A DNA stretch of 64,000 nucleotides, taken from contig NHBR02000105.1 in assembly GCA_002167435.2 (NCBI GenBank), forward strand, positions 1 through 64,000. Direction: 5' to 3'. A program made the translations under genes and the position numbers. Of the stretch, positions 15,115 to 64,000 are shown piece by piece. Position 1 is the stretch's first letter. Every line of letters starts with the position of its first letter. The notes under the pieces are model-generated. The model saw nothing but the letters and a program-made list of their open reading frames with translations, did no database searches and was not told the DNA's origin. The stretch is from Allomuricauda sp. TMED12 (GTDB lineage Bacteria > Bacteroidota > Bacteroidia > Flavobacteriales > Flavobacteriaceae).

Positions 15115-15697
15115 TTCCCAGAACCTCTACTGCTTCTTCGTATGTACCTGTATATCCCCAGGCCATAATAAATCTTGGATTTGGATCAGTGGGATTGGCG
15201 TGTTGATTGTATACACTATGAGGTTTAGTAGTATTAATTATTGCAGGATTTTTATCCAGCACATAGTCTAATACTGGTGTTGCATCTTGTACGTATGTTT
15301 GATATTCATTGCTTTGAAAACTATCTTTAATAATACCAAAATTACCATACCACTCATTGACCTGTGTACCTCCTTCATAGAACCTCGTTATCTTTCCTTC
15401 ACCAGTGTTCATAATAGGAATGTTTATACTAACAAGTCTGTTGACATCAAGATGTACAGGCCATGATTTGTTGGAATTTTTTAATATTCTTAGAGTGTTA
15501 CCTAATCTCGGAAACCTTTGTTGGAACTGTAACAGGTAATCGTGGTCAGCTACTTTGATAAGTGTTTTATCAGTAAACGATATCAGTCCCATGAAGTCAT
15601 CAGTTTGTTTCCACTCCTCTGTGATATAAGGTAATGCTATCTTCTTGAGTTCTTCAAGATCAAATAAATTTTTAAGTTCATAGTAGTAATCACTCAT
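15101..15697 (-). CDS. Putative 2OG/Fe(II)-type oxygenase-like protein (198 aa)
   Basis: It contains 'WPVHLDVNRLVSINIPIMNT' (H-x-D) around residue 82 and 'AIINTTKPHSVYNQHANPTD' then 'RFIMAWGY' towards the C-terminus, matching the H-x-D...H...R layout of aspartyl hydroxylase-like jelly rolls. It forms an ATGA overlap with the adjacent oxygenase-like gene at 15694, and the pair may be a duplicated or heteromeric set. Substrate unknown; family assignment is motif-based. Confidence 0.55.
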   Translation of the reverse strand: MSDYYYELKNLFDLEELKKIALPYITEEWKQTDDFMGLISFTDKTLIKVADHDYLLQFQQRFPRLGNTLRILKNSNKSWPVHLDVNRLVSINIPIMNTGEGKITRFYEGGTQVNEWYGNFGIIKDSFQSNEYQTYVQDATPVLDYVLDKNPAIINTTKPHSVYNQHANPTDPNPRFIMAWGYTGTYEEAVEVLGNGTR

Positions 15698-16215
15698 ATC
15701 ATTGTTCCCACTAGCTTCTCGTTGTAAATATCAATCACTTCATGATACATATTTTCAAAACAAAGTTGAAATACGATTCTCGTATTGTTATGTATAGAAA
15801 AATTAACATTGTGAAATTGTTCACCAGTATTTAGGATAGCTCCATAACCATTATAATCTACTTTTGCAACAATATTTTTTTGTTCATCATAGAAGCATGT
15901 TTCTCCACTGTTATCTGTTAACGGGAAACTAATCACTGTCTGTCTTGGCATATATGTGCCTTCATATTCATTATGACGATTCCTGTCTTTGTGTATCACA
16001 CTATCAGGTTCGTTAACCCTTAGCAGTTGACACACACAATCAAGACCAGTATTATTAAATCTCTGCAGCTTGCTGGGAAGTTTAAAAAAACTAATTTTGT
16101 AACTGATATCAACAAACGCTCCAGGAGCATGAGCAATCTCCAAAAGATCTTGCTTTGTCGAATCGGTTATTGCATACGGTATTACTCTATAATATGGATC
16201 ACAATTATGAAGCAT
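15694..16215 (-). CDS. Putative 2OG/Fe(II)-type oxygenase-like protein (173 aa)
   Basis: The motif 'SVIHKDRNRHNEYEGTYMPR' gives an H-x-D iron-ligand pair, 'QTVISFPLTDNSGETCFYD' the following strands, and 'GAILNTGEQFHNVNF' with 'NNTRIVFQLCF' the distal His and the Arg that would hold 2-oxoglutarate. Length is short for the fold but complete in motif order. It overlaps the class IV aminotransferase gene upstream by 11 nt and the next oxygenase by 4 nt. Confidence 0.55.
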   Translation of the reverse strand: MLHNCDPYYRVIPYAITDSTKQDLLEIAHAPGAFVDISYKISFFKLPSKLQRFNNTGLDCVCQLLRVNEPDSVIHKDRNRHNEYEGTYMPRQTVISFPLTDNSGETCFYDEQKNIVAKVDYNGYGAILNTGEQFHNVNFSIHNNTRIVFQLCFENMYHEVIDIYNEKLVGTMI

Positions 16216-17002
16216 TATGTGCTACTTTATATTCATAATGATTCCTCAATATTTCAGTAATGTTATTAGAGGGAAATTGGTGTTCATTCAATGATTTGAC
16301 AGGAGTTAATCCTCCTGATGTAGAACATATGAAGCATTCAGAGAATTGGTTATATTCCTTGAAATCTCTTCTTTCAAATCCAATAGCAAGCTCCTTACAC
16401 ATTTCCTCTACAACATGGATTGTAACACTATTCAATACATCTGTCTTTGGCGTAACCACTATGTTATCAACTACAAAACATATTCCAAATCCAGGCCCTT
16501 CATTGATATATCCCTCAACACTTCGTACAATAGCTGTGTCAGTCTCCGCAAATCTCTGGGCTCGGGTGAGCTCTATCCAAGAGAAATTTTTATGTGTTTG
16601 ATATCCTGGTGACCTTGGAAGATCTTCATTGATAGAAAGTGTTATGGGACTATCGGAAATCCCATAGTATGGTTTTGCATATATCAGTGTGTGTTCGGGG
16701 CCCGATAGATCTCTTGGTGATCCTGAAGGAGGTGTACCTCTCCACTTAATAAACCACACAAATGAATTAGGACAATCGTTAATTAAATTATTGACAATAT
16801 CTGAGTAATCATTGTAAGTAAATCCATAGAAATTACAATTCTCTTTGAACCTTTTCATATGAATATCATAAAAGCATGGCCGAGCATTTACTGATTTCAT
16901 AACATCATATGTCGCGTCGCCATGAATGAATCCAAAGTCAAGTGGTGATATTCTTACATCATCTATGGAACAATATGATCCATCAAACCAACAATTAATC
17001 AT
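16205..17002 (-). CDS. Class IV (BCAT / D-amino acid type) PLP aminotransferase (265 aa)
   Basis: With the ATG at 17002 (MINCWFDGSYCSIDDVRISP) the protein has 'LDFGFIHGDATYDVMKSVNA' (fold-type IV N-domain), the likely PLP lysine K138 in 'YQTHKNFSWIELTRAQRFAE' and 'GYINEGPGFGICFVVDN' with the PLP-nitrogen glutamate E168. This is the pattern of D-alanine/branched-chain aminotransferases and ADC lyases. The start overlaps the upstream stop by 8 nt and has a GAGG Shine-Dalgarno. In the island it could supply an amino group to a sugar or keto-acid, or make a D-amino acid; which is not known. Confidence 0.8.
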   Translation of the reverse strand: MINCWFDGSYCSIDDVRISPLDFGFIHGDATYDVMKSVNARPCFYDIHMKRFKENCNFYGFTYNDYSDIVNNLINDCPNSFVWFIKWRGTPPSGSPRDLSGPEHTLIYAKPYYGISDSPITLSINEDLPRSPGYQTHKNFSWIELTRAQRFAETDTAIVRSVEGYINEGPGFGICFVVDNIVVTPKTDVLNSVTIHVVEEMCKELAIGFERRDFKEYNQFSECFICSTSGGLTPVKSLNEHQFPSNNITEILRNHYEYKVAHNAS

Positions 17003-17264
17003 CACTATGAGCCTCGATGAATAAAACTTGCTGCAGCTGCACATCATTAGGAAGTTTTTCCTTGAGAGTTTTCAACCTGTTAATTCTCCACTGCAGTAAC
17101 TTGAAGTCAAGTACCCATGGTACAAACGCATGAATGACACTACCAATACACATTAACAGCAGAAATCCAGCCTCACCCATCGCCAACTTAAAATGCCAAA
17201 AGTAACCACCGCTAACGCTGGCAGCCTCTTTTGCTTCTCTCAAATGATTTTTATTAAACCACAT
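16995..17264 (-). CDS. DUF6356-like small membrane protein (89 aa)
   Basis: A hydrophobic stretch 'GEAGFLLLMCIGSVIHAFVP' forms one membrane helix followed by 'LQWRINRLKTLKEKLP'. The order (Y.W..k.A...a...l...i.s.iHAfvP) resembles the DUF6356 family found in alphaproteobacteria and their phages. Function unknown. It sits between a GNAT-like gene and the aminotransferase with short overlaps both sides, suggesting a membrane-proximal step. Confidence 0.6.
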   Translation of the reverse strand: MWFNKNHLREAKEAASVSGGYFWHFKLAMGEAGFLLLMCIGSVIHAFVPWVLDFKLLQWRINRLKTLKEKLPNDVQLQQVLFIEAHSDD

Positions 17265-17781
17265 AGGTTTGTATTTTACTCCTTACATTAAAATATTTTT
17301 TACTATTGAACTTCCATACTGTTTGATCTGTATTAAATATACTATCATTTCGAACAAAAGTCAACATGTTTTGTTTAGCTATCAACTGCATAGCACGATG
17401 GTTTTTTGTTCCAATATTCGTTGTGATATATAATACATCTGATCCAAAAGTTTCAGCCCATTTAATCTGATAAGGTATCAGTTCACGAAAAGTGCTTGAG
17501 TTCCAATGACCTCTTGCAAGAGATTTTTTAACATCTGTTCCTGGTATCTCACATCCCCTAAATTGAATCCTAAAACCATCTTCAAAAGCATGACATCCAC
17601 CAGTTCCTATCACAACATCATTGTTCATCAGCGCCCACATATTTCCACATACTGACGGAAGCCAATCCAGCTTCATTCTCTTAGCAGATACGTTATTCGA
17701 ATATCCTAGGTCCTTACACTTAGAATAAAACACATCCATTTGTTCTGGTATAGTACTAAGATTGGATATAACAGTCAACAT
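17254..17781 (-). CDS. GNAT-like acetyltransferase (putative, 175 aa)
   Basis: The pattern 'SVCGNMWALMNNDVVIGTGGC', then 'RGHWNSSTFRELIPYQIKWAETFGSD' and 'LYITTNIGTKNHRAMQLIAK' follows the beta-4/alpha-3 and 'N..n.raikli.k' order of GNAT folds in marine-phage proteins, although the classic R/Q-x-x-G-x-G/A is not clear. ATG 17781 overlaps the kinase-like gene by 26 nt. Acetyl donor and acceptor are unknown; assignment is tentative. Confidence 0.5.
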   Translation of the reverse strand: MLTVISNLSTIPEQMDVFYSKCKDLGYSNNVSAKRMKLDWLPSVCGNMWALMNNDVVIGTGGCHAFEDGFRIQFRGCEIPGTDVKKSLARGHWNSSTFRELIPYQIKWAETFGSDVLYITTNIGTKNHRAMQLIAKQNMLTFVRNDSIFNTDQTVWKFNSKKYFNVRSKIQTYVV

Positions 17782-18205
17782 ATTTTTCTTTAAATTTTCT
17801 CATTCTTATGTCATGTTCTTCACATCCAAATCCCTCAAGATCTACAGCATACAGTATGTTTGTGTCTCGCTCAATTATAAAGTTAGAAGGTGATATATCC
17901 CTATAAGTAAAAATATCATCCCTCTCAACACAGTACTTTTGTATCATGTTAATATATTTTATGAACGCCCTACCAACCAATAACTGATCACCTTTAATAA
18001 ATTGTGATACTATTTCTAATGTTCTTCCGTTACTGGTGAAAGTGAATTCAGGGATTTGTATTTCTCCAAAGTCATTACGAACCTTTTGTAGTGTTATCAA
18101 ATCTTCAATATGTCTTTCAACACCTTGTATGTTGCTCATTATATATTTCTTGTGTATATAATAACTAGCTACTTTGTCAGCACTATGATATAATTTTTCT
18201 TCCAT
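17756..18205 (-). CDS. Compact protein-kinase/APH-fold phosphotransferase-like protein (149 aa)
   Basis: It contains 'IFTYRDISPSNFIIERDTNI' (catalytic-loop Asp103 and metal-binding Asn108) and 'LYAVDLEGFGCEE' (Asp122, DFG-equivalent), i.e. the catalytic half of an aminoglycoside-phosphotransferase/lipopolysaccharide-kinase type fold. At 149 residues the N-lobe is strongly reduced and no clear ATP-binding glycine loop or lysine is visible, so it may be inactive, use a shortened lobe, or act with a partner. First gene after a consensus sigma70-type promoter, with GGGG as Shine-Dalgarno. Confidence 0.6.
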   Translation of the reverse strand: MEEKLYHSADKVASYYIHKKYIMSNIQGVERHIEDLITLQKVRNDFGEIQIPEFTFTSNGRTLEIVSQFIKGDQLLVGRAFIKYINMIQKYCVERDDIFTYRDISPSNFIIERDTNILYAVDLEGFGCEEHDIRMRKFKEKYVDCYIQS

Positions 18206-18231
18206 ATACCCCGCCCGAAGACCATAGTCTT

Positions 18232-18259
18232 ATTATACATGATTTTTCATAAAAGTCAA
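18232..18259 (-). promoter_or_regulatory. Sigma70-type promoter for the left half of the accessory island
   Basis: On the minus strand TTGACT (18259-18254), a 16-bp spacer and a perfect TATAAT (18237-18232), preceded by GCTG as in the other early promoters of this window (core CTGTTGAC). It lies in a 57-bp gap, one of the few real gaps in the island, and points into the kinase-like gene at 18205. This implies part of the island can be transcribed by host polymerase independently of the upstream virion operon. Confidence 0.75.
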
Positions 18260-18262
18260 CAG

Positions 18263-19006
18263 CTAATACCAAAAATTATTGATCCACTGATCCTTAATCA
18301 ATTCCATATTGTTGTCGGCATTTGAGAAGTGTACCATTTTTATACATTCATCAAATTCACCACCGAGATAGTAAGGCTCATCTTTACCAACTATTGTTTG
18401 CCAGTTATATTGTATCTTTACTATTTCTTCATCATTGTACTTCGCAAACCATTCCATTGGAAACCAAGATCTGTCTTGTATAACGTGTTGGTCAATAAAG
18501 TTTTGCTCACCATTAACAGGACCTTTTGCCTCGCCAATATTGATATAATGTTCTTGCCAGTGTCCTGGATTAGATGAGAATGTCTGCCAAAGATAATTTG
18601 TATCCCCCATATAGAACATTTGAAATCCACCGTTGATCATGCAATCGTCTAACCTATTTGACCACCATCTTTTGAAACATCCAAAGTGTTTTGGAGGTAG
18701 GGGATACAGCAGAATGTCATCCATCTCACCAGTAATTATCCAATCAATGTCAAGGATCAAACATTTTTCTCCATTGGGGATTCCACCAAAACCTTCTTGA
18801 TGGAACTTTAGTTTGTGCCACTGCAGTTTAAATTCTAACGGATCCTCTATTGGAACAATGATAATATCTTTGTCCAATACTTCTGGATCTTCTGTATAGC
18901 AATAAAATTTAAAGTCTACTGTTGAATTCCTTTTGATACTATTGTATAGTCTATTGACGTACACAGATGAGTATTTGGATCCAACTTTTAAAGTAAGAAT
19001 ATTCAT
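18263..19006 (-). CDS. GT8-like glycosyltransferase (247 aa)
   Basis: Begins MNILTLKVGSKYSSVYVNRL with 'FKFYCYTEDPEVLD' and a D-x-D metal/nucleotide-sugar motif in 'KCLILDIDWIITGEMDDIL', then 'NGGFQMFYMGD' as in family 8-like transferases of marine phages. It is a paralogue of the plus-strand gene at 22448 (same N-terminal block VNRLy..v.rN.tv.F.FYCYT.DPE). It starts immediately after the stop of the QueC-like gene. Donor and acceptor unknown; likely decorates a cell-surface or virion glycan. Confidence 0.75.
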   Translation of the reverse strand: MNILTLKVGSKYSSVYVNRLYNSIKRNSTVDFKFYCYTEDPEVLDKDIIIVPIEDPLEFKLQWHKLKFHQEGFGGIPNGEKCLILDIDWIITGEMDDILLYPLPPKHFGCFKRWWSNRLDDCMINGGFQMFYMGDTNYLWQTFSSNPGHWQEHYINIGEAKGPVNGEQNFIDQHVIQDRSWFPMEWFAKYNDEEIVKIQYNWQTIVGKDEPYYLGGEFDECIKMVHFSNADNNMELIKDQWINNFWY

Positions 19007-19762
19007 TTATCTATCAAAACACAAATCATATTGACCAAACGCCCAATATTTTTCCCTACACCAAAAACAATTTTTACATGGCTCAGTAAAGCTCTTTGTT
19101 TCTTTTTGATATCCAGTGCATGATGCTGTATAAGGATATAACCACTCCATCAATCCTTCTTTTTCGTACATTCCAGCAACCCATTTTTTATCAACATTTC
19201 GAAATGGTCTATAGTTTACATTATTAAGAAATGTTTCGCCGTCAAGATTGACTTTATACCGTCTTGACTCTACAAAAATAGGCCACGTCTCACATATTTC
19301 TTGAGGAGGTGCAGCTGTCATTCCATTTAGAAAAATATTCCAATATTTGTATTTGTGTCTCATTAGCATTTCATTATGAGCACATATTAATCTTTTGGTG
19401 GCACCGCCTTCTTTACTCTCAGCTACATGATGCTTCCACATAGGATGCGCCATAGCTCTTGCTCTTTCTTTGGGGTCTTTTACATCGATATCAAACTCGT
19501 ATAGTTTGTCTGGTATATCAACATGAGGAAATCTTTCCTTCATCATTTGAAATATTTCTCTTGCAAACCAAATATGAGGCGGTCTTGCAACATCAATACC
19601 ACACCAAGGAAAGTATTTTGCCTCAGGAACATATTTACAAGCAAGATAAAACAATAAAGCTGAATCAGCTCCTCCAGACAAACTCATTCCAACAGGTTGT
19701 CTGGATCGTAATAAATCATCATTTAGATAAACTGTCTGTCCTGCTGCTTCTAGTTCAATCAT
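19007..19762 (-). CDS. PP-loop (adenine nucleotide alpha-hydrolase) ATPase, QueC-like with Cys4 zinc site (251 aa)
   Basis: The PP-loop SLSGGADSALL (S29-S34) sits in the N-terminal third. The C-terminus has Cys215 plus CKNCFWC (Cys229, 232, 235), the same C-x(13)-C-x2-C-x2-C arrangement as the zinc site of 7-cyano-7-deazaguanine synthase (QueC). The N-terminus (MIELEAAGQTVYLNDDLL) and the middle segment are unlike ordinary QueC, and no QueD, QueE or FolE-like partner is visible, so a related ATP-dependent amidation or nitrile/thiol chemistry on another substrate is equally possible. It overlaps the radical SAM gene upstream by 4 nt. Confidence 0.7.
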   Translation of the reverse strand: MIELEAAGQTVYLNDDLLRSRQPVGMSLSGGADSALLFYLACKYVPEAKYFPWCGIDVARPPHIWFAREIFQMMKERFPHVDIPDKLYEFDIDVKDPKERARAMAHPMWKHHVAESKEGGATKRLICAHNEMLMRHKYKYWNIFLNGMTAAPPQEICETWPIFVESRRYKVNLDGETFLNNVNYRPFRNVDKKWVAGMYEKEGLMEWLYPYTASCTGYQKETKSFTEPCKNCFWCREKYWAFGQYDLCFDR

Positions 19763-20769
19763 TCTACTAACTTTCCTTTTATCATCCTATCAAGCCATTT
19801 TTTTGATCCACAGTTGCGGTTGCAGATATGAAATCTTTTTTCTTCCCAAATAAGCTCTAAAATTTCTCTTTTTGTTTCATATCCATCAATAATACTCTGA
19901 ATATCGGTTGTGTGAATATTTAGATCAAAGTCTACAAGATAATTGAATCTCTCAACTGTATAGTCTCTTACCTTTGCATCATACTTGTAGTACCAGTAGT
20001 GTATTCCCCACCAACAACAGGGATAGACATCACCATCACAAGCAACATACATTTCCTCTTTGTGAACAACTCTACATTCAACTTCTCTTACAACACTTTT
20101 ATCATAAATAAATGGATTATTAAGATCAGGGTTCTTAGGATGGTTTAAAACAACACCTGACTTTTTTCCTCTTTCGTTTACACCTTGAGGGGTGTTAATA
20201 CGGTAAGATTTTTTAACATCAAAACTAACGAATCCATTTTTTTTTGCTTCTTCCCTACATTTTTCAATCACATGCTCATTATGTTCAAATGGAATAAAGA
20301 TCCATTTTGATCTCCCACCCGCCTCATTAAATGCCTTGGCGTTAGCTATGATCTTATGATAATTGGTTCCAACTCTGTAGATATGATTAGTATCCTCATC
20401 ACCATCAATATGCCACTGAATGTATAATTTTGGGTGTACCATCTCTACCCAGTATTGTGGTGTTCTTGGAGCTCCGTTGGTTGATACGGATACAAAAATA
20501 TCGTTGGAGGTAAAGTATTGTACAATTTCCTTAAATTCAGGACATACAGCAGGATCACCAAGATTTCCACAAAGATGTACTGCATTGAGGTCAGGAAGTC
20601 CACTATGAATTCTCTTTATATCATCTAACGATAGATCATGAAATCCAGCGTTAATCATATGATCATCTAAACCTCCAGCAAAAACACCAGTTCTAACACA
20701 TGCTGGACAACCAGCATTACACCTATTTGTAAGTTCTATATGGAGTTTCTTTACAGTACTATTATACAT
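19759..20769 (-). CDS. Radical SAM protein with SPASM-like C-terminus (336 aa)
   Basis: CNAGCPAC (Cys17, 21, 24) is the radical SAM cluster motif when the ATG at 20769 (MYNSTVKKLHIELTNR) is used; this ATG overlaps the upstream stop by 8 nt. A C-terminal cysteine group ('EMYVACDGDVYPCCWWGIHY' and 'RFHICNRNCGSKKW') resembles a SPASM auxiliary-cluster domain, as in peptide-maturing or sugar-dehydrogenating radical SAM enzymes. Adjacent to a second radical SAM/twitch protein and the QueC-like ATPase. Substrate unknown. Confidence 0.8.
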   Translation of the reverse strand: MYNSTVKKLHIELTNRCNAGCPACVRTGVFAGGLDDHMINAGFHDLSLDDIKRIHSGLPDLNAVHLCGNLGDPAVCPEFKEIVQYFTSNDIFVSVSTNGAPRTPQYWVEMVHPKLYIQWHIDGDEDTNHIYRVGTNYHKIIANAKAFNEAGGRSKWIFIPFEHNEHVIEKCREEAKKNGFVSFDVKKSYRINTPQGVNERGKKSGVVLNHPKNPDLNNPFIYDKSVVREVECRVVHKEEMYVACDGDVYPCCWWGIHYWYYKYDAKVRDYTVERFNYLVDFDLNIHTTDIQSIIDGYETKREILELIWEEKRFHICNRNCGSKKWLDRMIKGKLVE

Positions 20770-21889
20770 TATATTCTGGCCACAATTCTTCAAAGTTAGA
20801 ATTTCTATGTGCATTGAGTCTCTTTATATAACTTAACGCATACTTCCATTCATCTTCATTTCTATCTCTGTGAAGATTTCTTAAAATATAAAACATATCT
20901 TTGTCGTTTTTATATTTTTTTATTAACTGCTCTTTGTTTGGATGATTTTTTATATTAAGATAAAGGGGTGAATTTACGGTATTGGTAAAATCTACTTCGA
21001 ATCCCATATCACTATAATAGTCTCTAATCTCAAACAGATCTTCTACATTAAGGATAGAAGTTGTTACATTAATTCTTACCTTATAATTGTATGGAGCATT
21101 GTCTTTAAAAAATCTAAGATTATCTTCAAATTTTTTTATATCTATTGGATATCTTATCCAGGATAACTTATCACCAAAGTGATCACATGATATACCAAAA
21201 CTAGTATGAAAAAATCTTTCTGTATAATCAAAAATGTTTTTACCTTTATAGTTGAGCTCAGTAAAATTAGTATCAAAACTTAATGAAATATTTTTAGCAA
21301 CATCATCGGGTATGCTTTCGATAAATTTATACTGTTTTGGTAATTGAAGTGGTTCGCCTCCTGTAATGTGTAAATGTTTTACTCTATCAATATGATTAAG
21401 AATATCCTCGGTCATTACTTTCCATTGATTTACATCAATTCTTGCATCAAAGTCTTTTTTTGATATCTCTTCAAACATATTTGCTTCTTTAAGCTCTTTT
21501 ATTCTTGTTGAACTGTTGTAGGGTATACACATATAACAAGCTAGATTACAATAATTACCGAACACTCTTAACTTTAGTGTAACGTCCCCAACATCAAATC
21601 TTTGAAACTTTGGAATATGACTATGATACTTAAACAGTCTTGGGGATTGAAATCCCTCTCGTTCTATATCATAACATTTTTCACATCCACCAATCTCTTC
21701 TCCCTCAATCATTCTTTGTCTTATATCTTCCATCGCGTCAGATAGAAAAAATTCAAAGGGAGCAGTATCCTTTGAACTAAAATGTTTAAGTTCATTTTTA
21801 TCATCATAAGCATGACAACATAATTTATAGTTACCAGCGCTATCTGAATAGATATGAGTAAATGCCGCTGTACAATATGTCTTATTCAT
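20762..21889 (-). CDS. Twitch-domain radical SAM protein (375 aa)
   Basis: N-terminal cysteines at 6, 24, 25, 69 and 72 ('GNYKLCCHAYDD', 'GGCEKCYDIEREGFQSPR') precede the core motif CNLACYMC (Cys114, 118, 121) and 'HLHITGGEPLQLPKQYKFI'. This is the layout of 'twitch domain-containing radical SAM proteins' common in marine phages, where an auxiliary FeS site comes first. Start ATG 21889 overlaps the methyltransferase-like gene by 4 nt. Reaction unknown. Confidence 0.8.
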   Translation of the reverse strand: MNKTYCTAAFTHIYSDSAGNYKLCCHAYDDKNELKHFSSKDTAPFEFFLSDAMEDIRQRMIEGEEIGGCEKCYDIEREGFQSPRLFKYHSHIPKFQRFDVGDVTLKLRVFGNYCNLACYMCIPYNSSTRIKELKEANMFEEISKKDFDARIDVNQWKVMTEDILNHIDRVKHLHITGGEPLQLPKQYKFIESIPDDVAKNISLSFDTNFTELNYKGKNIFDYTERFFHTSFGISCDHFGDKLSWIRYPIDIKKFEDNLRFFKDNAPYNYKVRINVTTSILNVEDLFEIRDYYSDMGFEVDFTNTVNSPLYLNIKNHPNKEQLIKKYKNDKDMFYILRNLHRDRNEDEWKYALSYIKRLNAHRNSNFEELWPEYNV

Positions 21890-36950: not shown

Positions 36951-38807
36951 TTAATACCTTGAAGTAGTAGTGTATTCAATACCAGCTGAAGTACCACCTG
37001 TTACCATTGTATCAACCTCTCCTGTTATTGTAGCATCAGAAACAAGAATTGACAACAGTTCATTTCGTTTTGGTGATAGATCATTTGAATTTGGTGTTGC
37101 AGTAATTTCAATGTATGTGCCAATGATAGCGGTAGGAGCAAAACCATTCAATACAATTTTACCTTCTGATTCAGTTACAGTTCCTACATCATTAAGTAAA
37201 ACCGATTGACTTATTCCTGTACCAGATACAATCTGTATTCTTCTTGTACCATCTGTATTTAATTTATCTCTTAGTGTACACTGTTTTGATAGATAAGTAA
37301 ACTCTGAAGATGAAATAATTTGTTCTTCTGATGATGTGGAATAAAGAGGAGAAGAAAACACAATTTGATATCTTGTTTCTGTATTCAGTGTAGGATTAAA
37401 CCTTTTTTTCATTTTAATTCTGGTTGTACTTGATACGATTGCTGCATCAGTATTATCTATTTTTGTTGATAGATTAGAATATCTGAATACCCCATCAAAC
37501 CTTTTCAATTCATCATTATTGTAAGTGTCGACAGTTGTTCTAATTAAATTGGAAATTGCATCAGCTGAGAGGTCTGACACATTGGGATTATATTTGTAGA
37601 ATATTTGAAGATCAATATATGTGTATGCAGGATCAACAATTTCAGGTGTAATAGAAACAACATTCTTTGGTTTTAGATATTGTGATTTAATAAACTCTTT
37701 ATCGGTGGAAGAAAGCGTTTCAGCATCCTTTGGAGCAATAGAAATATATACCTTCCCATAATCTGGTGGATCATTATCCTCTCCTCCCCAAACTGCAATA
37801 GCATCAATATTAGCAAAGTTTTGTTGAATAATTGATTTATAATCATCAGGTGTGACTGCTCTGTTTTGAGACACAAAGGAAAGAGGAGCATTAAATTTAA
37901 CTGAATCAATATCCTCCTTGTCAGAACCACCTGATGCCCTTGTCACTGTTGTAATAGTGACATCAGAATTACCTTGAATAGTGTCAGCAAGTGTGAATAC
38001 ATTAGCACCATTAGCAGCATCAAGATTGGTATTAAGGTATTCTAATTGTATAATATTACCATTTGTGGGTCTTTTACCTACAATATTATCACCAAAACTT
38101 ACTTCATAAAAACCCGATCTTCCTTCATTGAGAAAATATGCTGTAGAAGTCGAGAGAATGTCAACGAGGTTTGATGCAAGTGTATAATTTGTTGTTGCTG
38201 TGTTGGTTTCCGATTCTTGTACATTCACTGTAAGTGAAGACGTAACAGCATTTTCTGAAGTTAATTCAAATTTTTCTGCTGTGGATGTATCGTAAATATA
38301 TTCCTGTGTTTGATATTTACCCTGTTGAACCTCCACACCACTGAATATATAAGCACCGTTTGAATCTCGTGATGTAACTATTGTTTTTGTGGTCACAAAT
38401 GTATAGGTTGTACCGTTGATCAAGGAAGAAAACTGAGTACCTTTATTCATTGTAATAGTTTTGTACGATCCATCTTGATTGACAATATCAACAGGATTGT
38501 TAATTGTAATATTAATAACAGCCTTAGGAGCAAAAGCAGAGCGCGGTGTATATCCTAATAGTTTAGCATGAGAGACAACAGATTCTCTCAGTTGAGCTGA
38601 ATCAATAAAAGTTTCATTGAGGGCTAGGTTAGCATTAAATGAGTTATAATGTGTTACATAAGCAAACACATCTAACATAGCATCAATTGCACTACCCTCA
38701 AAATTATAATCGTTAAGAACACTTTGATTTTCAAGATACGCTTTCAAATTACCTTTGATGGTATTGAAATCAAGTTCTGATACTCTTAATAGTTTTCCTG
38801 TTGTCAT
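36951..38807 (-). CDS. gp6: Baseplate wedge protein gp6 (618 aa)
   Basis: The N-terminus 'LRVSELDFNTIKGNLKAYLE', 'YNFEGSAIDAMLDVFAYVTH' and 'LNETFIDSAQLRESVVSHAK' with 'LLGYTPRSAFAPKAVINI' is the conserved core of T4 gp6 / baseplate J-like wedge proteins, and length (T4: 660) agrees. Residues about 320-420 ('NRAVTPDDYKSIIQQNFAN', 'VYISIAPKDAETLSSTDKEF') are the J-like domain. It follows gp25 without a gap, as in T4. gp6 joins neighbouring wedges and forms the inner baseplate ring. Confidence 0.93.
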   Translation of the reverse strand: MTTGKLLRVSELDFNTIKGNLKAYLENQSVLNDYNFEGSAIDAMLDVFAYVTHYNSFNANLALNETFIDSAQLRESVVSHAKLLGYTPRSAFAPKAVINITINNPVDIVNQDGSYKTITMNKGTQFSSLINGTTYTFVTTKTIVTSRDSNGAYIFSGVEVQQGKYQTQEYIYDTSTAEKFELTSENAVTSSLTVNVQESETNTATTNYTLASNLVDILSTSTAYFLNEGRSGFYEVSFGDNIVGKRPTNGNIIQLEYLNTNLDAANGANVFTLADTIQGNSDVTITTVTRASGGSDKEDIDSVKFNAPLSFVSQNRAVTPDDYKSIIQQNFANIDAIAVWGGEDNDPPDYGKVYISIAPKDAETLSSTDKEFIKSQYLKPKNVVSITPEIVDPAYTYIDLQIFYKYNPNVSDLSADAISNLIRTTVDTYNNDELKRFDGVFRYSNLSTKIDNTDAAIVSSTTRIKMKKRFNPTLNTETRYQIVFSSPLYSTSSEEQIISSSEFTYLSKQCTLRDKLNTDGTRRIQIVSGTGISQSVLLNDVGTVTESEGKIVLNGFAPTAIIGTYIEITATPNSNDLSPKRNELLSILVSDATITGEVDTMVTGGTSAGIEYTTTSRY

Positions 38808-39229: not shown

Positions 39230-39532
39230 CTAATTATTAACGATTACATCATCAGATCCAGTTAAAGCACTATTTGCTACCCAACTTCCATGCCCCCCAG
39301 TAGAATCACTTTGTCTATGAATAGCAATGTTATTGACATACACATCTCCTGACCCTCCCGTTGCAGGATCACCACAACTTGTTGCATCCCCTATTCTTAT
39401 TGAGTTGTCACTGTTAACATACACATCTCCTGATCCCCCCGTATAGTTTGTTTGGTGAAAAGGATTGGGGGTTGGACTTGCATGTCCTACATGTGAATCT
39501 GTTCCTGATCTAACTGCGCCTAGTGTTGCCAT
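39230..39532 (-). CDS. PAAR-like spike-tip protein (100 aa)
   Basis: ATG 39532 (MATLGAVRSGTDSHVGHASP) is chosen because it forms a TAATG overlap with the gp5 stop. Repeated 'GGSGDVYVNSDNSIRIGDAT' / 'GGSGDVYVNNIAIHRQSDST' units and conserved His/Cys (HVGH, SCGDP, GGHG) match the PAAR fold (T4 gp5.4), which caps the central spike with a metal-bound tip. Its place directly downstream of gp5 supports this. Confidence 0.85.
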   Translation of the reverse strand: MATLGAVRSGTDSHVGHASPTPNPFHQTNYTGGSGDVYVNSDNSIRIGDATSCGDPATGGSGDVYVNNIAIHRQSDSTGGHGSWVANSALTGSDDVIVNN

Positions 39533-41217
39533 TATACAAAGATCCCCGATAGCCATGAAGGAGCATTTGCACTTTTACCACCAGCTCCCCAATATCCTGC
39601 ATAAGTTACTTCTGGTACATATGTTTTAGCTATATCAACATGAATACCAACACCACCCATATACCCAGGTCCTGCGCCAATTGATTCTGCTCCTGCAGAT
39701 CTCAATGCTTGAATGAATGCCACTGTTTGAGCATCACCATTTGCAACATAGATTCTATTTGTTCTAGCTTCGTCTGTGTAGATCCAAATATCTGCAGCAT
39801 AACCATCATCATGTCTATGTGAACCAACGCTTCCTGTTGTTTCATTTTGACCACCTGAGAAGATTGCTACATGGAGACCAGTAGCACTTGCTGCCGATGT
39901 TATTATGTTTTCTAGTACAGAATTTAGTTTTAAACTTCTTGTAGCTTGTTGATTAACATATGTAACAGAACCACTTCCTACAGCTGGATCTAGTAATGTA
40001 ATATCTCGTGTAGTTGTTTCTGTAGTTGATGTTATGGTATCTGATGATACAGTATTACCTGTAGCAGCTGTCCGTGTTCCATCATCTGCTGTTTCATCTT
40101 GTGCCTGGGCTCTCTGTGAGGTCGGCATTTCAATTTTATATAACTCAGCAGCAGTAAACAATGGTTCATCTTTTGGAACAGTCACATCAACATGACCTTG
40201 ATCATATGCCCACGCTGCAACATCAATTGCATCGACTGTTGTTGGGTCTTGACCTGCTGGGTTAAGATCAATCCTTGGTGCTTCGAGATGCATATTGCCA
40301 ATAGAGGAAATCTTTGATGTTGTCTTAACCGCAAGGTCAAGTTCTTTTTCAGCTCTAAGTTTTATTTTACCTTTTACTGCAAGATCAAAATCACCCTCTG
40401 CTCTCACAGTAAGATTACCTTCACTATTCAATGCAACATTACCATGAAGATTTAATGTAGAAGTTCCCTTAACATGGGCTTGTAAATTACCACCAACACT
40501 TACAGTTGAATTACCAACAGTGTCGATAACAGAGTTACCTTGTACTTGAACATCCAGATCATTTGATACTGTCACATGTGCATTACCATCAACGTTAATT
40601 ACCATTTCACCAAGTGATGTATTGTACTGATTGTTTGATCTGATTCTAACATCACCGTTAGGATGCATTTCAATAAACGATCCTGATCTATGTTGAATCA
40701 TTATCCTTTCATGGTTGGGGGTATCATCATATTCAATTAAATGTCCTGATTCAGTTTCGACAACATGATTATAAGGATAAACTGCCTTATAAGGATCTAA
40801 TGGTTCAAGATTAGAAGGGTTTTTTTCTCTTCTTCTCAAACCACGTGCGCGTTGGTTGACATCAGGCTCATCAAGATAACCATCTCGTGGATAGTAACCT
40901 CGAGGATCACTAAATCCCACTGACGATGATCTTTTTTGTTCGGGGTGACCTGGTACTGTACCAATCACTATAGGGTCCTGAAGATGTTGATCACGGAATA
41001 TCAATACAACCCACGATCCTTCGATCAGAAACGGTGTTTGGCCAATACCGTTAACAGAAGGAGATGTTGTCGGTGTCATTACAGCTGCCCATGGAAGAGA
41101 TGCTGTTGGTACCTCTGATATGTTAGGCGAATGATATCCTAGTACACGCACCCGTACTCTACCCATTTTTTCAGGATCAAGTCTGTCTTCCACTACTCCA
41201 AAATAAAAATTATTCAT
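39532..41217 (-). CDS. gp5: Baseplate hub/central spike gp5-like protein with C-terminal M15-type peptidase-like domain (561 aa)
   Basis: The N-terminal OB-fold ('YFGVVEDRLDPEKMGRVRVR', 'PWAAVMTPTTSPSVNGIGQT', 'GSWVVLIFRDQHLQDPIVIG') and the central beta-helix region (about residues 165-310, 'GNAHVTVSNDLDVQVQGNS') equal T4 gp5/VgrG. The T4 lysozyme domain is absent. Instead residues about 420-561 contain 'AIFSGGQNETTGSVGSHRHD' followed by DGYAADIWIY and 'GYMGGVGIHVDIAKTYV', an H...D...H-x-D pattern of peptidase M15/DD-peptidase-type zinc enzymes, implying peptide cross-link cleavage during entry. Confidence 0.85.
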   Translation of the reverse strand: MNNFYFGVVEDRLDPEKMGRVRVRVLGYHSPNISEVPTASLPWAAVMTPTTSPSVNGIGQTPFLIEGSWVVLIFRDQHLQDPIVIGTVPGHPEQKRSSSVGFSDPRGYYPRDGYLDEPDVNQRARGLRRREKNPSNLEPLDPYKAVYPYNHVVETESGHLIEYDDTPNHERIMIQHRSGSFIEMHPNGDVRIRSNNQYNTSLGEMVINVDGNAHVTVSNDLDVQVQGNSVIDTVGNSTVSVGGNLQAHVKGTSTLNLHGNVALNSEGNLTVRAEGDFDLAVKGKIKLRAEKELDLAVKTTSKISSIGNMHLEAPRIDLNPAGQDPTTVDAIDVAAWAYDQGHVDVTVPKDEPLFTAAELYKIEMPTSQRAQAQDETADDGTRTAATGNTVSSDTITSTTETTTRDITLLDPAVGSGSVTYVNQQATRSLKLNSVLENIITSAASATGLHVAIFSGGQNETTGSVGSHRHDDGYAADIWIYTDEARTNRIYVANGDAQTVAFIQALRSAGAESIGAGPGYMGGVGIHVDIAKTYVPEVTYAGYWGAGGKSANAPSWLSGIFV

Positions 41218-49087: not shown

Positions 49088-49999
49088 CTAGCCATCTTGT
49101 GCTAATTTAGCAAAGTATGACATCGTATCATCATCGTCTGACGATGATTTAGCCACTGGTGGAGATGTAGGAGCAGCTTCACTGATAACTGGTTCTGCTG
49201 CTGGCTCATCTAGTGATACAGATTCAGCAGTTGTGAATGAAGCGGTAGTGCCTCCCAGTACGCGATTAAGTTTTTCCTTCAACTCATCATATGACTTATA
49301 CTTCGTGGGATCAGCAAACTCTTGTAGTGGGTACATAGAGTTATAAACCTTTCGAAGTTCTTCCTCATCACCGTTGAGCAAAGCTCCAGGTGATGCGAAT
49401 TCTGATTTATCATAGTTGCGGTATCCCTCTACCTTTCGAATCTTCAACTTGAAGGAAGCTCCTTCCCAGAAGTCAAAAGGATTGATAGGATCTTCATCCT
49501 GAAATTCAGGCTGCATTGCATCCATGATCATATCAAAGATCTTCTTGCCAAACTTATACAAGAATACCTTACCCTCGTTCTGCGGATTACCAGGATCCGA
49601 TTCAACGAGAATGTTCGCTACATAATGAAGCCTACGCTTCTGCTTACGAACAGTGGCTTTGTCATCCTCGACGCCAGAGTTCCACAACTTTGAGTTTAGC
49701 TCAGAAACAGGATCTGGTTTATTAATGGATGTGAGAGAGTTCTCGATATACCATTGACCGGTTGGACCTTGGAATGCATGATCCCAATAACGAACCCATG
49801 GTAGATCTTCACCAGCTGCTGCTGGAAGAAAACGAATAACAGCATAGCCGTTACCTGCTTTATCTACAGTAGGTTTCCAAACTCGTTCATCAACATAAGA
49901 TTTCTTCTCTTGTTGACCGTTACCGTTGATTGCTTCTGCGGCCTTGATCATACTTGCGATCTGGTTACCACGATTAGATTTAAGTGCATCAAATGACAT
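49088..49999 (-). CDS. gp32: Single-stranded DNA-binding protein gp32 (303 aa)
   Basis: The N-terminal LAST-like basic motif (LKSNRG), the OB-fold core 'AVIRFLPAAAGEDLPWVRYW', 'HAFQGPTGQWYIENS' and 'LYKFGKKIFDMIMDAMQPEF', plus a Ser/Asp-rich acidic C-terminal tail (SSSDDDDTMSYFAKLAQ), identify gp32. The His of the T4 zinc site is kept (DHAF), but the zinc cysteines are replaced (ENSLTSINKPDPVSELNSKL), as in other marine T4-like phages. It binds ssDNA in replication, recombination and repair. AAGGAG Shine-Dalgarno; promoter just upstream. Confidence 0.95.
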   Translation of the reverse strand: MSFDALKSNRGNQIASMIKAAEAINGNGQQEKKSYVDERVWKPTVDKAGNGYAVIRFLPAAAGEDLPWVRYWDHAFQGPTGQWYIENSLTSINKPDPVSELNSKLWNSGVEDDKATVRKQKRRLHYVANILVESDPGNPQNEGKVFLYKFGKKIFDMIMDAMQPEFQDEDPINPFDFWEGASFKLKIRKVEGYRNYDKSEFASPGALLNGDEEELRKVYNSMYPLQEFADPTKYKSYDELKEKLNRVLGGTTASFTTAESVSLDEPAAEPVISEAAPTSPPVAKSSSDDDDTMSYFAKLAQDG

Positions 50000-60958: not shown

Positions 60959-61957
60959 TTATTTACTACTCTTCAAATTGTCTCTGAATATTAGCCATGC
61001 TCTTTCCCAGGACCATTTTATACTCATATTATATACTTTTTCTCGGTCAAGGTCAAGCGCTTTTTTGGTTGCTATTGATAAATTATTGTCCATTGCTCCT
61101 GTTATATTGTCATCAATTACATCTAACGGGCCTTGCACAGGATAAGCTGCAACAGGTGTGCCACAGGCCATTGCCTCTATCATAACTAATCCAAAAGTGT
61201 CCCAACAACTTGGGAACACAAATACATCTGCCTGTTGATAGTAGTGGGCAAGTTCAACACCCCTCTTTGCTCCAATAAAATGAACATCGGGGTAGCGTTT
61301 GATATATTGTTTAAGCATCGGTCCATCACCTACCTGTATCTTTTGACAGTTGGGATAGTCCATCTCATAGAACGCTTCAAGATTCTTTTCCTTGCTTACA
61401 CGGCTTACGTTTAATAGTATGACTTTGTCACGTACTTCGTGTTCAGCAGGTTTAAACAGTTCTCTATCTACGCCACGTGTCCAAGGTTTTACATTATCAC
61501 CAAAACCGTGACTTTGCAGTTGTTTGACCATAGAAGGAGTGGTAGTCAACACACAATTAGAATTACTATGAAACCAACATATCAAAGGCCAAGTAACAAA
61601 TTCTGGGACATTAAATATCTTTTTTATAGCTTCAGGAAATTTAGTGTGATAAGCAGTATTGTAGCTATACCCGTGTATTGTAAGATACCTTCTAGCAAAC
61701 AAACCAAGAAGACCCTCTGTGGCGATGTGGATATGATCCGGAGATATTTCCTCGATCGTTTTACCCAAGTCTTTGGGATAGGCAAGTTTGACTTCGTTAT
61801 ACTTAGGGCAATCAACATAGCGGTACCGCCCGGGGTTAATATAATCAATAGAATAACCATCCCGAGCCGCATACGGTTCAATGTTTTTGTAGGTCGTAAC
61901 AACGCCATTGATTTGATCAACTAGATTGTCCGTGATTATCAGTATCTTTTTCGTCAT
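60959..61957 (-). CDS. agt-like: GT4 glycosyltransferase, Agt-like glycolipid synthase (332 aa)
   Basis: 'ILIITDNLVDQINGVVTTYK' and 'CPKYNEVKLAYPKDL' are the N-terminal signature of the GT4 branch (D.w.pQvNGVv.Tl..., P.YpEI.La) that sits next to plcP in alphaproteobacteria. The C-domain has 'ILLNVSRVSKEKNLEAFYEM', 'IQVGDGPML' and 'VFPSCWDTFGLVMIEAMACG', in which the first glutamate of EX7E is Asp. Agt adds glucose or glucuronate to diacylglycerol. It overlaps the PlcP-like gene by 41 nt out of frame, strong coupling. Confidence 0.8.
   Translation of the reverse strand: MTKKILIITDNLVDQINGVVTTYKNIEPYAARDGYSIDYINPGRYRYVDCPKYNEVKLAYPKDLGKTIEEISPDHIHIATEGLLGLFARRYLTIHGYSYNTAYHTKFPEAIKKIFNVPEFVTWPLICWFHSNSNCVLTTTPSMVKQLQSHGFGDNVKPWTRGVDRELFKPAEHEVRDKVILLNVSRVSKEKNLEAFYEMDYPNCQKIQVGDGPMLKQYIKRYPDVHFIGAKRGVELAHYYQQADVFVFPSCWDTFGLVMIEAMACGTPVAAYPVQGPLDVIDDNITGAMDNNLSIATKKALDLDREKVYNMSIKWSWERAWLIFRDNLKSSK
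61028..61056 (-). promoter_or_regulatory. Consensus sigma70 promoter inside the GT4 gene
   Basis: Minus strand TTGACC (61056-61051), 17-bp spacer, perfect TATAAT (61033-61028), located in the 3' part of the GT4 coding sequence about 90 bases before the SWIM gene ATG. A second TTGACC overlaps the spacer. Probably drives the SWIM protein. Confidence 0.6.
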
Positions 61958-62696
61958 TAAAATAAAGTTCCCATTTACCGTCGTGATGTTCTAGCAAGGC
62001 AGTAGCACTCTCCACCCAATCACCGTCATTCATGTATTCTATGTTCCTTATCTTTCTCATTTCTGCGTTGTGTATGTGTCCGCAGATAATGCCATCATAG
62101 CCTTTATTTTCACAATATTCTGATAGGTATTCCTCGTAACGATTTATAAACTTCACAGCCTGTTTAGCATTGGCTTTCAACCACTTTGAGAGACTCCAAT
62201 ATTTCAAACCAAACAACTTTCTAACTTTGTTGAAATATGTATTAAACATTATCATAAAATCATATAGGTTATCACCTATGTGCATAATCCATTTTTTATC
62301 TTTACGCATTAGTACATCAAACTGATCACCATGTACCACAAGATACTTTTTACCATTCACAGCTGTGTAATTATAACGGTTTAGTATTCTCACTCTACCT
62401 ATATCAATTCCATACTTTAGAAAAGGTCTTAAGCCTTCATCATGGTTACCAAGAATATAGTAAACTTTGGTTCCTTGTTTAGCTGCCGTTAGTATTCTAC
62501 GAACAACGTTAGCATGACTCTGTGGGAAATACCAACGTTTTGTTAAACGCCAACCATCAAATATATCCCCAACAAGAAATAGATTATCTGATGTATAATT
62601 TTTAAGAAACTCGCAAAGGGCATCTGCCTGACATCCACGTGTGCCAAGATGTATGTCACTTATAAAAATACTTTTATATTTTTTTTCCAGAGTCAC
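61917..62696 (-). CDS. plcP-like: PlcP-like metallophosphoesterase (UDP-diacylglucosamine hydrolase family, 259 aa)
   Basis: 'SIFISDIHLGTRGCQADALC' (Asp14, His16), 'LVGDIFDGWRLTKRWYFPQS' (Asp44), 'YILGNHDE' (Asn84, His85), 'VVHGDQFD' (His122) and 'ICGHIHNAEM' (His207, His209) give all metallophosphoesterase ligands. The 'WRLtk.WyfPQSHa.VVr' and 'YWSLSKWLKANAKQAV' blocks are those of PlcP, the enzyme that removes phosphate head groups from phospholipids under P limitation, rather than LpxH. Paired with the Agt-like transferase. Confidence 0.85.
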   Translation of the reverse strand: MTLEKKYKSIFISDIHLGTRGCQADALCEFLKNYTSDNLFLVGDIFDGWRLTKRWYFPQSHANVVRRILTAAKQGTKVYYILGNHDEGLRPFLKYGIDIGRVRILNRYNYTAVNGKKYLVVHGDQFDVLMRKDKKWIMHIGDNLYDFMIMFNTYFNKVRKLFGLKYWSLSKWLKANAKQAVKFINRYEEYLSEYCENKGYDGIICGHIHNAEMRKIRNIEYMNDGDWVESATALLEHHDGKWELYFNDEKDTDNHGQSS

Positions 62697-62889
62697 CGCT
62701 TACGTACACCCTTGTATGGTTTTTAAAAGTTTTAAAAATACATACTATAAACCATATTTGACAAATTATTAGATATTCATCAAACATATTATTACCTGCG
62801 GCAAAGTATTCAAATTGATCGCCAATTGTAGCTGCCCATATCAACATGATAAAAAATGACACAAATGGTGTTACGATATATTTTATCAT
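62674..62889 (-). CDS. Small membrane protein upstream of the PlcP-like gene (71 aa)
   Basis: Encodes MIKYIVTPFVSFFIMLIWAA... with two hydrophobic helices ('IVTPFVSFFIMLIWAATI' and 'YLIICQIWFIVCIFKTF') and a basic C-terminus. It overlaps the PlcP-like gene by 23 nt, so it might help place the lipid enzymes at the membrane, but no family is recognised. Confidence 0.65.
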   Translation of the reverse strand: MIKYIVTPFVSFFIMLIWAATIGDQFEYFAAGNNMFDEYLIICQIWFIVCIFKTFKNHTRVYVSGDSGKKI

Positions 62890-63057: not shown

Positions 63058-63723
63058 CTATCGCTTGTATGCTTCAATAGCATCAAGTAGTTTTTCTGTC
63101 CAGTTATCACGGTGTTCAATGAACACTTGAGGAGACTCATTGTCAACAGATATGAGAACAACGAGTTGTGTGACAGGAACCCTAGTTCGTTCCTCCCACA
63201 TTATTGCATATGCAGCTGCTTGCATAAAATAGTTTTCAATCCACTCTTTCCTTTTAGGTTTGAGAGATGTCTTAAAATCTATGATGGATCTTTTACCATC
63301 GAAATAACCAACACAATCAACACGACCAGCTAAACGCAGGTGATCAGAATATAATGCTGCTTCCTGTGCATAGACAACATCTAATCTTTGATCGAGTATT
63401 GGTTTAAGATTTTGAAAATCACTGATAATATTTGGTAAATATCCTTCTGTGTATTCAGGATCATTATCAATATATTTTTCAATCATATTGTGCACAGCAG
63501 TGCCGCGAGATGAAGCTCTACGAGATATCTTGTTGGCTTCCTTCTCACCGACACGCTGTCGCCATTCGAGGATTGACTGTTTCTTCAGCGCACCAAGTAC
63601 TGTGGTAACTGATGGATATAATTGTCCATCAGGACCAACATACTTGCGTCCTGAGTCTGTAGTCGTTGATTTCAAATCACTATACCCAAGATCGACTGGG
63701 TTATGTTTGAACTTTTTCCTCAT
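63058..63723 (-). CDS. PD-(D/E)XK (Cas4/RecB-like) exonuclease (221 aa)
   Basis: 'ASSRGTAVHNMIEKYI' (RecB-family His78), Glu121 in 'YAQEAALYSDHLRLAGRVDC', Asp136 and the core 'SIIDFKTSLKPK' (Asp149, Lys151) with 'YFMQAAAYAIMWEE' form the complete PD-(D/E)XK nuclease of RecB/Cas4 type. Such single-domain exonucleases are widespread in T4-like marine phages. No iron-sulfur cysteines as in Cas4 are seen. Confidence 0.85.
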   Translation of the reverse strand: MRKKFKHNPVDLGYSDLKSTTTDSGRKYVGPDGQLYPSVTTVLGALKKQSILEWRQRVGEKEANKISRRASSRGTAVHNMIEKYIDNDPEYTEGYLPNIISDFQNLKPILDQRLDVVYAQEAALYSDHLRLAGRVDCVGYFDGKRSIIDFKTSLKPKRKEWIENYFMQAAAYAIMWEERTRVPVTQLVVLISVDNESPQVFIEHRDNWTEKLLDAIEAYKR

Positions 63724-63868
63724 ATTCTAATACCATTTCTGTTTTGTATTTTTGTCTTTTTAATAGTACAGGATCTTTAATTCTTCTCCCTTGGATCCCA
63801 CTCTTTACTAGATTTTTATGTTTGTTAGCTTTTTTGTTACGTACATCATACCTCGAGTACTTAGCCAT
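63701..63868 (-). CDS. Small basic hypothetical protein (55 aa)
   Basis: ATG 63868 to TAA 63701. Protein MAKYSRYDVRNKKANKHKNL then 'GIQGRRIKDPVLLKRQKYKT' is strongly basic, compatible with RNA or DNA binding. Overlaps the exonuclease gene by 23 nt and the gene upstream by 8 nt, supporting translation coupling. Function unknown. Confidence 0.6.
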   Translation of the reverse strand: MAKYSRYDVRNKKANKHKNLVKSGIQGRRIKDPVLLKRQKYKTEMVLEYEEKVQT

Positions 63869-63992
63869 TTGACTCCAAATGCTCCTTAGTCATTATGTAT
63901 TCGCGGACGAAGTCCGAACGAACAATGTCTTCCCATGAGAATTGAACGTGTGTGAAATATTTCATATGATCCACAATATTAAGGAATTTCAT
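63861..63992 (-). CDS. Small hypothetical protein, possibly 5'-incomplete (43 aa seen)
   Basis: Frame MKFLNIVDHMKYFTHVQFSW then 'EDIVRSDFVREYIMTKEHLE' ends at TAA 63861. ATG 63992 is the first in-frame start seen, but the frame stays open to the window edge, so this may be the C-terminus of a longer gene. The Shine-Dalgarno-like AAGGA lies only 3-7 bases upstream within a hairpin. Confidence 0.5.
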   Translation of the reverse strand: MKFLNIVDHMKYFTHVQFSWEDIVRSDFVREYIMTKEHLESNG

Positions 63993-64000
63993 AATTCCTT
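63981..64000 (-). promoter_or_regulatory. Hairpin around ribosome binding site and start codon
   Basis: Perfect inverted repeat AAGGAATT / AATTCCTT with a 4-base loop containing most of the ATG at 63992. If transcribed as RNA it would bury the AAGGA in a stem and leave the start in the loop. May be chance, at the window edge. Confidence 0.35.

Follow-up and report, generated by a model that had tools for sequence, protein, structure and literature searches.

The stretch of DNA analyzed here, referred to as the window, comprises positions 1 to 64,000 of contig C123 (NHBR02000105.1; 87,435 bp) from the assembly of Allomuricauda sp. TMED12 (GCA_002167435.2; 4.3 Mb in 150 contigs, with an estimated contamination of 3.4%). 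The contig is that of a T4-like myophage filed in a bacterial assembly, and near one end of the window it carries two overlapping genes, one for a metallophosphoesterase resembling the phospholipase PlcP and one for a family 4 glycosyltransferase (GT4) resembling Agt. A preliminary description, made from the sequence alone, had reported this pair with an overlap of 41 nucleotides (nt), and the coordinates of the open reading frames (ORFs) agree with it:

61917 to 62696, minus strand: plcP-like metallophosphoesterase gene (GTG start, 259 amino acids), product a predicted membrane-phospholipid phospholipase C (Pfam, PlcP-diagnostic alignment columns, tree, and AlphaFold2 (AF2) model).

60959 to 61957, minus strand: agt-like GT4 glycosyltransferase gene (ATG start, 332 amino acids), product predicted to transfer sugar from a UDP-sugar to diacylglycerol (crucial residues of the SAR11 enzyme GTcp, plcP-linked relatives, and AF2 model).

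61917 to 61957, minus strand: the 41 nt shared by the 3′ end of plcP and the 5′ end of agt (ORF coordinates).

The overlap would allow translational coupling of the two genes.

Calcineurin-like phosphoesterase is the sole Pfam assignment of the esterase (Metallophos, 2.2e-15). All of the residues that we take to be its metal ligands, D14, H16, D44, N84, H122, H207, and H209, are present, as had been claimed. The sequence blocks cited in the preliminary description are likewise found in the case of GDIFDGWRLTKRWYFPQSH and YWSLSKW in the esterase and PKYNEVKLA (matching PxYxExxLA) in the glycosyltransferase, but the block given as QvNGVV reads QINGVV, within DQINGVV. In an alignment of 155 viral proteins, 76 cellular PlcPs, and 12 proteins resembling LpxH (UDP-2,3-diacylglucosamine diphosphatase), the seven metal-site columns are identical in 76 of 76 cellular PlcP and 12 of 12 LpxH-like rows and in 99–100% of the viral rows, and 23 other columns separate PlcP from the LpxH-like proteins. 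The window esterase has the PlcP residue at 21 of these 23, missing it at positions 138 and 177; the viral proteins have it at 15–22 (median 20). With LpxH models the esterase scores 61.4 bits (NF003743, cut-off 134) and 49 bits (TIGR01854, cut-off 190.35), below both cut-offs. It is 47.5% identical to a Pseudomonas aeruginosa plcP-like gene product that has a glycosyltransferase encoded next to it, 46% to the Sphingomonas protein, 43.5% to that of Sinorhizobium, 42–53% to cellular PlcPs encoded directly upstream of related glycosyltransferases, and 22% to Escherichia coli LpxH. From its gene order (plcP followed by the glycosyltransferase, as in PA3219-PA3218), the P. aeruginosa gene would be PA3219, whose product is 46–47% identical to two other characterized PlcPs according to the text of PMC8528852; the window protein would thus be about as near to it as characterized PlcPs are to each other. 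In a quick tree supported by the Shimodaira-Hasegawa-like approximate likelihood ratio test (SH-aLRT) only, a support of 99 separates the LpxH-like rows, and 12 of the 13 viral representatives fall into a single clade (99) within the proteobacterial PlcPs, with cyanophage S-SRM01 standing apart; it should be noted that E. coli LpxH and S-SRM01 have long branches in this tree, and that Pelagibacter phage Mosig EXVC030M, discussed below, has no row of its own. Structure prediction, which had been proposed earlier, gave a model with a mean predicted local distance difference test score (pLDDT) of 82.1, for which LpxH is the closest solved fold, as is to be expected from the common calcineurin-like fold. 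The assignment of the esterase to the PlcP type is well supported by these sequence comparisons.

The glycosyltransferase matches Pfam Glycos_transf_1 (6.5e-22). In SAR11 GTcp, 14 positions of relevance here are reported to be crucial, 13 of them being inactive as Ala substitutions in the text of PMC8231724 and Thr162 according to a figure legend there. All 14 residues are found in the window enzyme (G18, G82, G85, H104, T160, R161, R186, K191, D253, T254, F255, G256, E261, and W317), the correspondence being drawn from the residue numbers and motifs in the text of that paper and not from the GTcp sequence. The UDP-sugar motifs GRVAXEKN and FPSXTDTFG appear as SRVSKEKN, in which G and A are replaced by S, and FPSCWDTFG, in which T is replaced by W; three letters differ, and the functional residues are kept. 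The window enzyme is 39–46% identical to Agt-like proteins (40–46% for the plcP-linked cellular copies compared), and identities between the Agt clade and other GT4s are below 25% in the text of PMC8231724. Among the best 80 of at least 572 cellular loci found in a scan by the glycosyltransferase alone, 50 are immediately preceded by a PlcP gene on the same strand. A quick tree of 99 rows (SH-aLRT, moderate supports) groups 29 viral rows with one SAR86 and one Dehalococcoidia row (95), within the Agt-like proteins. Other GT4s, nine of them from the assembly and two from phages, including one annotated as a lipopolysaccharide (LPS) N-acetylglucosamine transferase, lie elsewhere on long branches, and three rows from the glycosyltransferase search fell among them. 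The AF2 model has a mean pLDDT of 91.8, and its closest solved folds are the GT4 enzymes MshA, sucrose-phosphate synthase, and BshA. The identity of the enzyme as an Agt-type glycosyltransferase is well supported. The placements that would have refuted the preliminary interpretation at the sequence level were not obtained among the proteins compared, since the esterase falls with PlcP rather than LpxH and the glycosyltransferase with Agt-like GT4s rather than with the other GT4s included. At the position of Arg163, which contacts diacylglycerol, 30 of 35 distant viral glycosyltransferases have Lys.

The viral loci compared are IMG/VR contigs, namely the best 80 of 113 selected by PlcP and the best 80 of 391 selected by the glycosyltransferase; seven contigs occur in both sets and are merged in counts on 155 contigs and unmerged in counts on 127 glycosyltransferase rows. 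PlcP is encoded upstream, on the same strand and within 2 kb, in 76 of the 80 glycosyltransferase-selected loci, and two of the four misses begin at a contig end. The genes overlap in 75 of the 127 rows and are at most 60 nt apart in 31 (window included), and a GT4 gene lies behind plcP in 49 of the 80 PlcP-selected loci, the contig ending too soon in seven. The PlcP family is present on 151 and GT4 on 123 of the 155 contigs, which were chosen by these two genes, and the next commonest neighbor family is on 25; because there is no other constant neighbor, the pair appears to move as a unit through varied surroundings. Distances between the PlcPs are correlated with those between the glycosyltransferases (Mantel r 0.66, reached in 0 of 2000 permutations; within the group of the window r is 0.81, with no permutation run), and some glycosyltransferases have been swapped against PlcP (e.g. 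L009, L011, and L029). T4-type gp6 is encoded on nine of 35 viral records, strongly matched on six. The ratio of nonsynonymous to synonymous divergence (dN/dS) relative to near relatives is 0.05–0.10 for PlcP (four comparisons, with dS >1; two more are saturated) and 0.12–0.22 for the glycosyltransferase (eight comparisons), and both genes are under purifying selection. The phage pair is, on these comparisons, a real, conserved, and probably functional version of the bacterial lipid-remodeling operon.

Other genes recur near the viral pair. Those for UDP-glucose dehydrogenase-like proteins lie near plcP on nine contigs and those for a sugar-nucleotide epimerase on 15, with or without GT4, which would be consistent with the provision of UDP-glucuronate or one of its products. 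Fatty-acid desaturase genes are found near plcP-agt on 18 viral contigs (e.g. L130:7632-8342), possibly as part of a wider lipid-remodeling set, and a class 3 lipase gene is near plcP in ten viral loci (L005-L007, L013-L015, L031, and L097-L099). Three records deposited as plasmids of P. aeruginosa also contain a plcP-agt-like pair, for example at 2189-4053 of L282 (pHOU1-1).

A link with phosphate, which was a guess in the preliminary description, is independently supported by the neighbors and upstream regions of related loci. PstS-type proteins (PF12849) were sought in 28 genomes or records, comprising 26 of 35 preselected viral records (after removal of nine small ones), the assembly, and Mosig, which was added though its phosphate-transporter neighbor had already been seen. 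They are encoded on nine of the 28, and in eight of the nine no more than 6 kb separate the gene from plcP, the records being 62–218 kb long (P ∼1e-7 if placement were random); the figures are seven of eight without Mosig and six of seven (P 5e-6) without Mosig and a near-copy. As a control, ribonucleotide reductase genes are within 6 kb of plcP in three of 21 records (Fisher 2e-4 versus PstS, and 0.002 in the strictest version). Sites resembling PhoB boxes were counted upstream of representatives at 85% identity and compared with 400 permuted consensus words. With at most three mismatches, they precede five of 49 plcP representatives (permuted mean 0.44; the count is reached in one of 400 permutations) and three of ten pstS representatives (mean 0.08; 0 of 400); a less strict comparison at this threshold gave seven of 116 for plcP and nine of 686 for other ORFs. 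With at most four, the values are nine of 49 for plcP (mean 3.1; 4 of 400), five of ten for pstS (mean 0.73; 5 of 400; one in reverse orientation), and four of 16 for a BPL_N-type neighbor family (mean 1.1; 8 of 400), whereas other ORFs have no excess (28 of 568, mean 29.3). In the phage of the window, a phoH gene lies upstream of the pair.

In the proposed mechanism, PlcP would cut the phosphorylated head group from phosphatidylglycerol or phosphatidylethanolamine, leaving diacylglycerol, and the Agt-like GT4 would add to it a sugar, either a hexose or a uronic acid, donated by UDP-Glc, UDP-Gal, or UDP-GlcA; because this sugar caps the diacylglycerol, the membrane would keep its bilayer as glycolipid. 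The phosphate of the head group would then become available for nucleotide synthesis and phage DNA, an extra host phosphatase step being assumed because a phospholipase C yields phosphorylated head groups and not free phosphate. This chemistry is that of a bacterial pathway, as described in the texts of PMC4796936, PMC8528852, and PMC8231724. We infer the activity of the enzymes, the sugar used, transcription as a single operon, the benefit in phosphate, and the host. To the reading that this T4-like phage carries a two-gene module that remodels host membrane lipid from phospholipid to glycolipid for phosphate economy, we assign a probability of about 0.72. A broader proposal is more tentative, with somewhat less than even odds: that large phages carry a cassette for phosphate economy, partly under host PhoB and made up of pstS, plcP, and a lipid glycosyltransferase that can be exchanged (GT4 Agt or GT2), which converts membrane phospholipid to glycolipid during infection and directs the freed phosphate into phage DNA.

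Several observations weigh against phosphate-saving lipid remodeling by the pair. Of the 80 PlcP-selected viral loci, 24 have no GT4 adjoining plcP though the contig continues. In 14 of these (L005, L006, L007, L013, L014, L015, L026, L027, L028, L030, L032, L035, L075, and L079) a family 2 glycosyltransferase identified by Pfam starts −88 to +166 nt from the plcP stop, which suggests that the lipid glycosyltransferase behind plcP may be exchangeable between GT4 and GT2. No Agt-like gene accompanies plcP in Mosig, which is absent from the glycosyltransferase matches at E 1e-5, and among the closest cellular glycosyltransferases (best 80 of at least 572) 30 have no PlcP directly upstream. The window glycosyltransferase shares 32% identity with the phage enzyme that is annotated as an LPS transferase. 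The catalytic Asp (Asp256 in SAR11 Agt), which the window enzyme keeps, is Glu in 61 of 91 near viral relatives, and the change of Asp to Glu at this position reduced GTcp activity by >90% (text of PMC8231724); the sugar or acceptor of viral enzymes with this Glu or with the Lys noted above may differ. With respect to phosphate, no match to the PstS-type family PF12849 is present in the whole assembly, including C123, and the 7.3 kb upstream of the window plcP contain no Pho box with at most three mismatches, the best sites having four. Among the related loci, which are not independent of one another, Pho-box sites are present in a minority, and at four mismatches the nine forward sites of plcP compare with five in reverse orientation. 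Also, co-location with pstS does not prove a joint function, because phage metabolic genes may cluster anyway.

The principal alternative, which we consider distinctly improbable, is that the same glycolipid chemistry takes place but that its benefit is a change in the envelope (superinfection exclusion, an altered receptor environment, or easier lysis) rather than phosphate. The lack of a Pho box before the window plcP would be compatible with this, glycosyltransferases of pelagimyophages are interpreted as envelope changers in the text of PMC7029224, and desaturase genes, which are within 6 kb of plcP on four of the nine viral records that have one (P 0.011; a weak co-location), would fit a wider membrane change. 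However, the co-location of PstS and the enrichment in PhoB boxes among relatives favor phosphate, and the characterized PlcP-Agt systems are phosphate-starvation systems (texts of PMC4796936 and PMC8528852).

A role of the pair in modifying LPS, with the esterase acting on lipid A in the manner of LpxH and the glycosyltransferase as an LPS or O-antigen transferase, is very unlikely. It would agree with the names under which phage relatives have been deposited, with LpxH as the closest solved fold, and with the 32% identity to the annotated phage LPS transferase, but the window glycosyltransferase groups with plcP-linked glycosyltransferases, and an LpxH identity of the esterase is rejected by its scores below both cut-offs, the tree split at SH-aLRT 99, and the 21 PlcP-diagnostic residues. 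LpxH resembles the esterase in its calcineurin-like fold, conserved metal-site columns, and solved structures but differs in its low sequence identity (22% for E. coli), its separate branch, and its lack of the PlcP-diagnostic residues. With respect to nomenclature, Mosig_00120 is deposited as a putative UDP-2,3-diacylglucosamine hydrolase, and the PlcP homologues in phage records MT647606.1 and MW015081.1 as UDP-2,3-diacylglucosamine hydrolase/diphosphatase. The gene name "lpxH" also appears in two viral surveys, one from offshore sea water and one from Lake Baikal (texts of PMC10653327 and PMC9611531), and some of the genes so named may be plcP.

The neighborhood of the pair and the phage hallmarks of the window include the following features:

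62674 to 62889, minus strand: hydrophobic ORF of 71 amino acids overlapping the start of plcP (ORF call; no Pfam or PHROGs match).

63058 to 63723, minus strand: phage exonuclease, PD-(D/E)XK, phrog_298, 5′ of plcP on the same strand (Pfam/PHROGs match).

63861 to 64000, minus strand: C-terminal end of the upstream phoH-like gene, on the same strand, which runs on to contig position 64547 (PhoH PF02562, 3.4e-39).

36951 to 38807, minus strand: T4-type baseplate wedge gp6, a phage hallmark (phrog_219, 2.1e-170).

39532 to 41217, minus strand: baseplate hub subunit/tail lysozyme family protein.

49088 to 49999, minus strand: single-strand DNA-binding protein (phrog_224).

The phage genes of C123 comprise those for the baseplate wedge gp6, the baseplate hub, tail proteins including the tail tube cap, the single-strand DNA-binding protein, a helicase loader, and an endolysin. 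The closest gp6 proteins in phage records, at 38–41% identity, are those of the Methylophilales phages Melnitz and the pelagiphages Mosig and HTVC008M. As had been proposed, the pair is phage-borne, and, as genes of bacterial metabolism on a contig with phage hallmarks, plcP and agt qualify as phage auxiliary metabolic genes. It could be suggested that C123 is bacterial DNA or what is left of a decayed prophage, with the pair as an ordinary cellular operon. This reading has in its favor the bacterial assembly in which the contig is filed but is rejected, as the least probable of the alternatives, in view of the T4-type baseplate, tail, and replication genes, the location of the closest relatives found (86% for PlcP and 83% for the glycosyltransferase) on IMG/VR contigs, the presence of a terminase on 12 of 27 records of the relatives (12 of the 15 >115 kb), and the difference from the PlcP of the assembly itself, which is encoded on contig C50 and is another protein, 41% identical. 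Because its own PlcP differs in this way, the assembly was also dropped as evidence for the host of the phage. The same phage encodes four radical-SAM-type proteins at 12105-21889 of the window, one with a B12-binding domain and one below the Pfam cut-off, and an IMPDH/GMP reductase-like protein at 10388-11425. The T4 late-promoter motif TATAAATA does not occur on the minus strand within 60–64 kb.

The nearest known counterparts of the pair are the PlcP-Agt operons of SAR11, Erythrobacter, and other marine bacteria (the "type 2" plcP context in the text of PMC4796936) and PA3219-PA3218 of P. aeruginosa (text of PMC8528852), in which both enzyme families are encoded in this order. The viral version retains the crucial glycosyltransferase and the PlcP-diagnostic residues, its genes overlap or are adjacent, and Pho-box-like sites precede some phage copies. 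It differs in being phage-borne and in sequence (42–53% identity for PlcP and 40–46% for the glycosyltransferase), and some phages have no GT4 or have GT2 in its place; in addition, the window copy has no recognizable Pho box and has phoH and an exonuclease gene upstream.

The pstS and phoH genes of phages are auxiliary metabolic genes. Like the pair, they are carried by phages and connected with phosphate starvation of the host, and pstS-type genes are those found within 6 kb of plcP on eight of nine records. In contrast, pstS serves the uptake of phosphate, whereas PlcP-Agt would draw phosphate out of the membrane lipid and put another lipid in its place.

A search of 50,697 phage records (E 1e-5) found PlcP-like genes in five, namely that of Mosig (56% identity to the window protein), two of S-SRM01 (34%), and two uncultured phage records (37 and 28%). 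No glycosyltransferase close to that of the window is present in these 50,697 records, the best at ≥80% coverage being 32% identical. In Mosig (L001:4897-6732), a culturable phage, the gene for this PlcP-like protein, Mosig_00120, is 150 bp from a back-to-back PstS-type gene annotated as a phosphate ABC transporter. A term search of the text of the Mosig genome paper (PMC7892664) finds no mention of lipid, phosphate, auxiliary, glycosyltransferase, or diacylglucosamine. Membrane-lipid genes of ocean viruses, pssA and ArnA, are known from the text of PMC11360552 and are, like the pair, virus-borne genes proposed to alter the host membrane; pssA, unlike plcP, acts in phosphatidylethanolamine synthesis and thus makes phospholipid. 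The main text of that paper does not name plcP, lpxH, phospholipase, or glycolipid. The text of PMC7029224 describes a desaturase in freshwater pelagimyophages and interprets pelagimyophage glycosyltransferases as LPS enzymes, and phospholipid recycling is altered in infected Pseudoalteromonas in low phosphate (text of PMC12282109). Searches of the open-access literature, as judged from the titles and opening lines of abstracts listed, turned up no description of plcP and agt together in a phage.

Lipid genes in phages are in general already known, and what appears to be new is a phage-borne version of a known bacterial lipid-remodeling operon. Its recurrence in many viral sequences suggests that viruses may remodel host membranes to save phosphorus. 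If this is true, phages gain an intracellular source of phosphate beside uptake through PstS; by a rough estimate, the phospholipids of a very small marine cell, a few million molecules, hold as much phosphate as about ten phage genomes of 140 kb. Viruses, besides bacteria, would then drive the exchange of phospholipid for glycolipid in phosphorus-poor water, and glycolipids that are taken as a sign of phosphorus-starved bacteria could therefore stem in part from infected cells.

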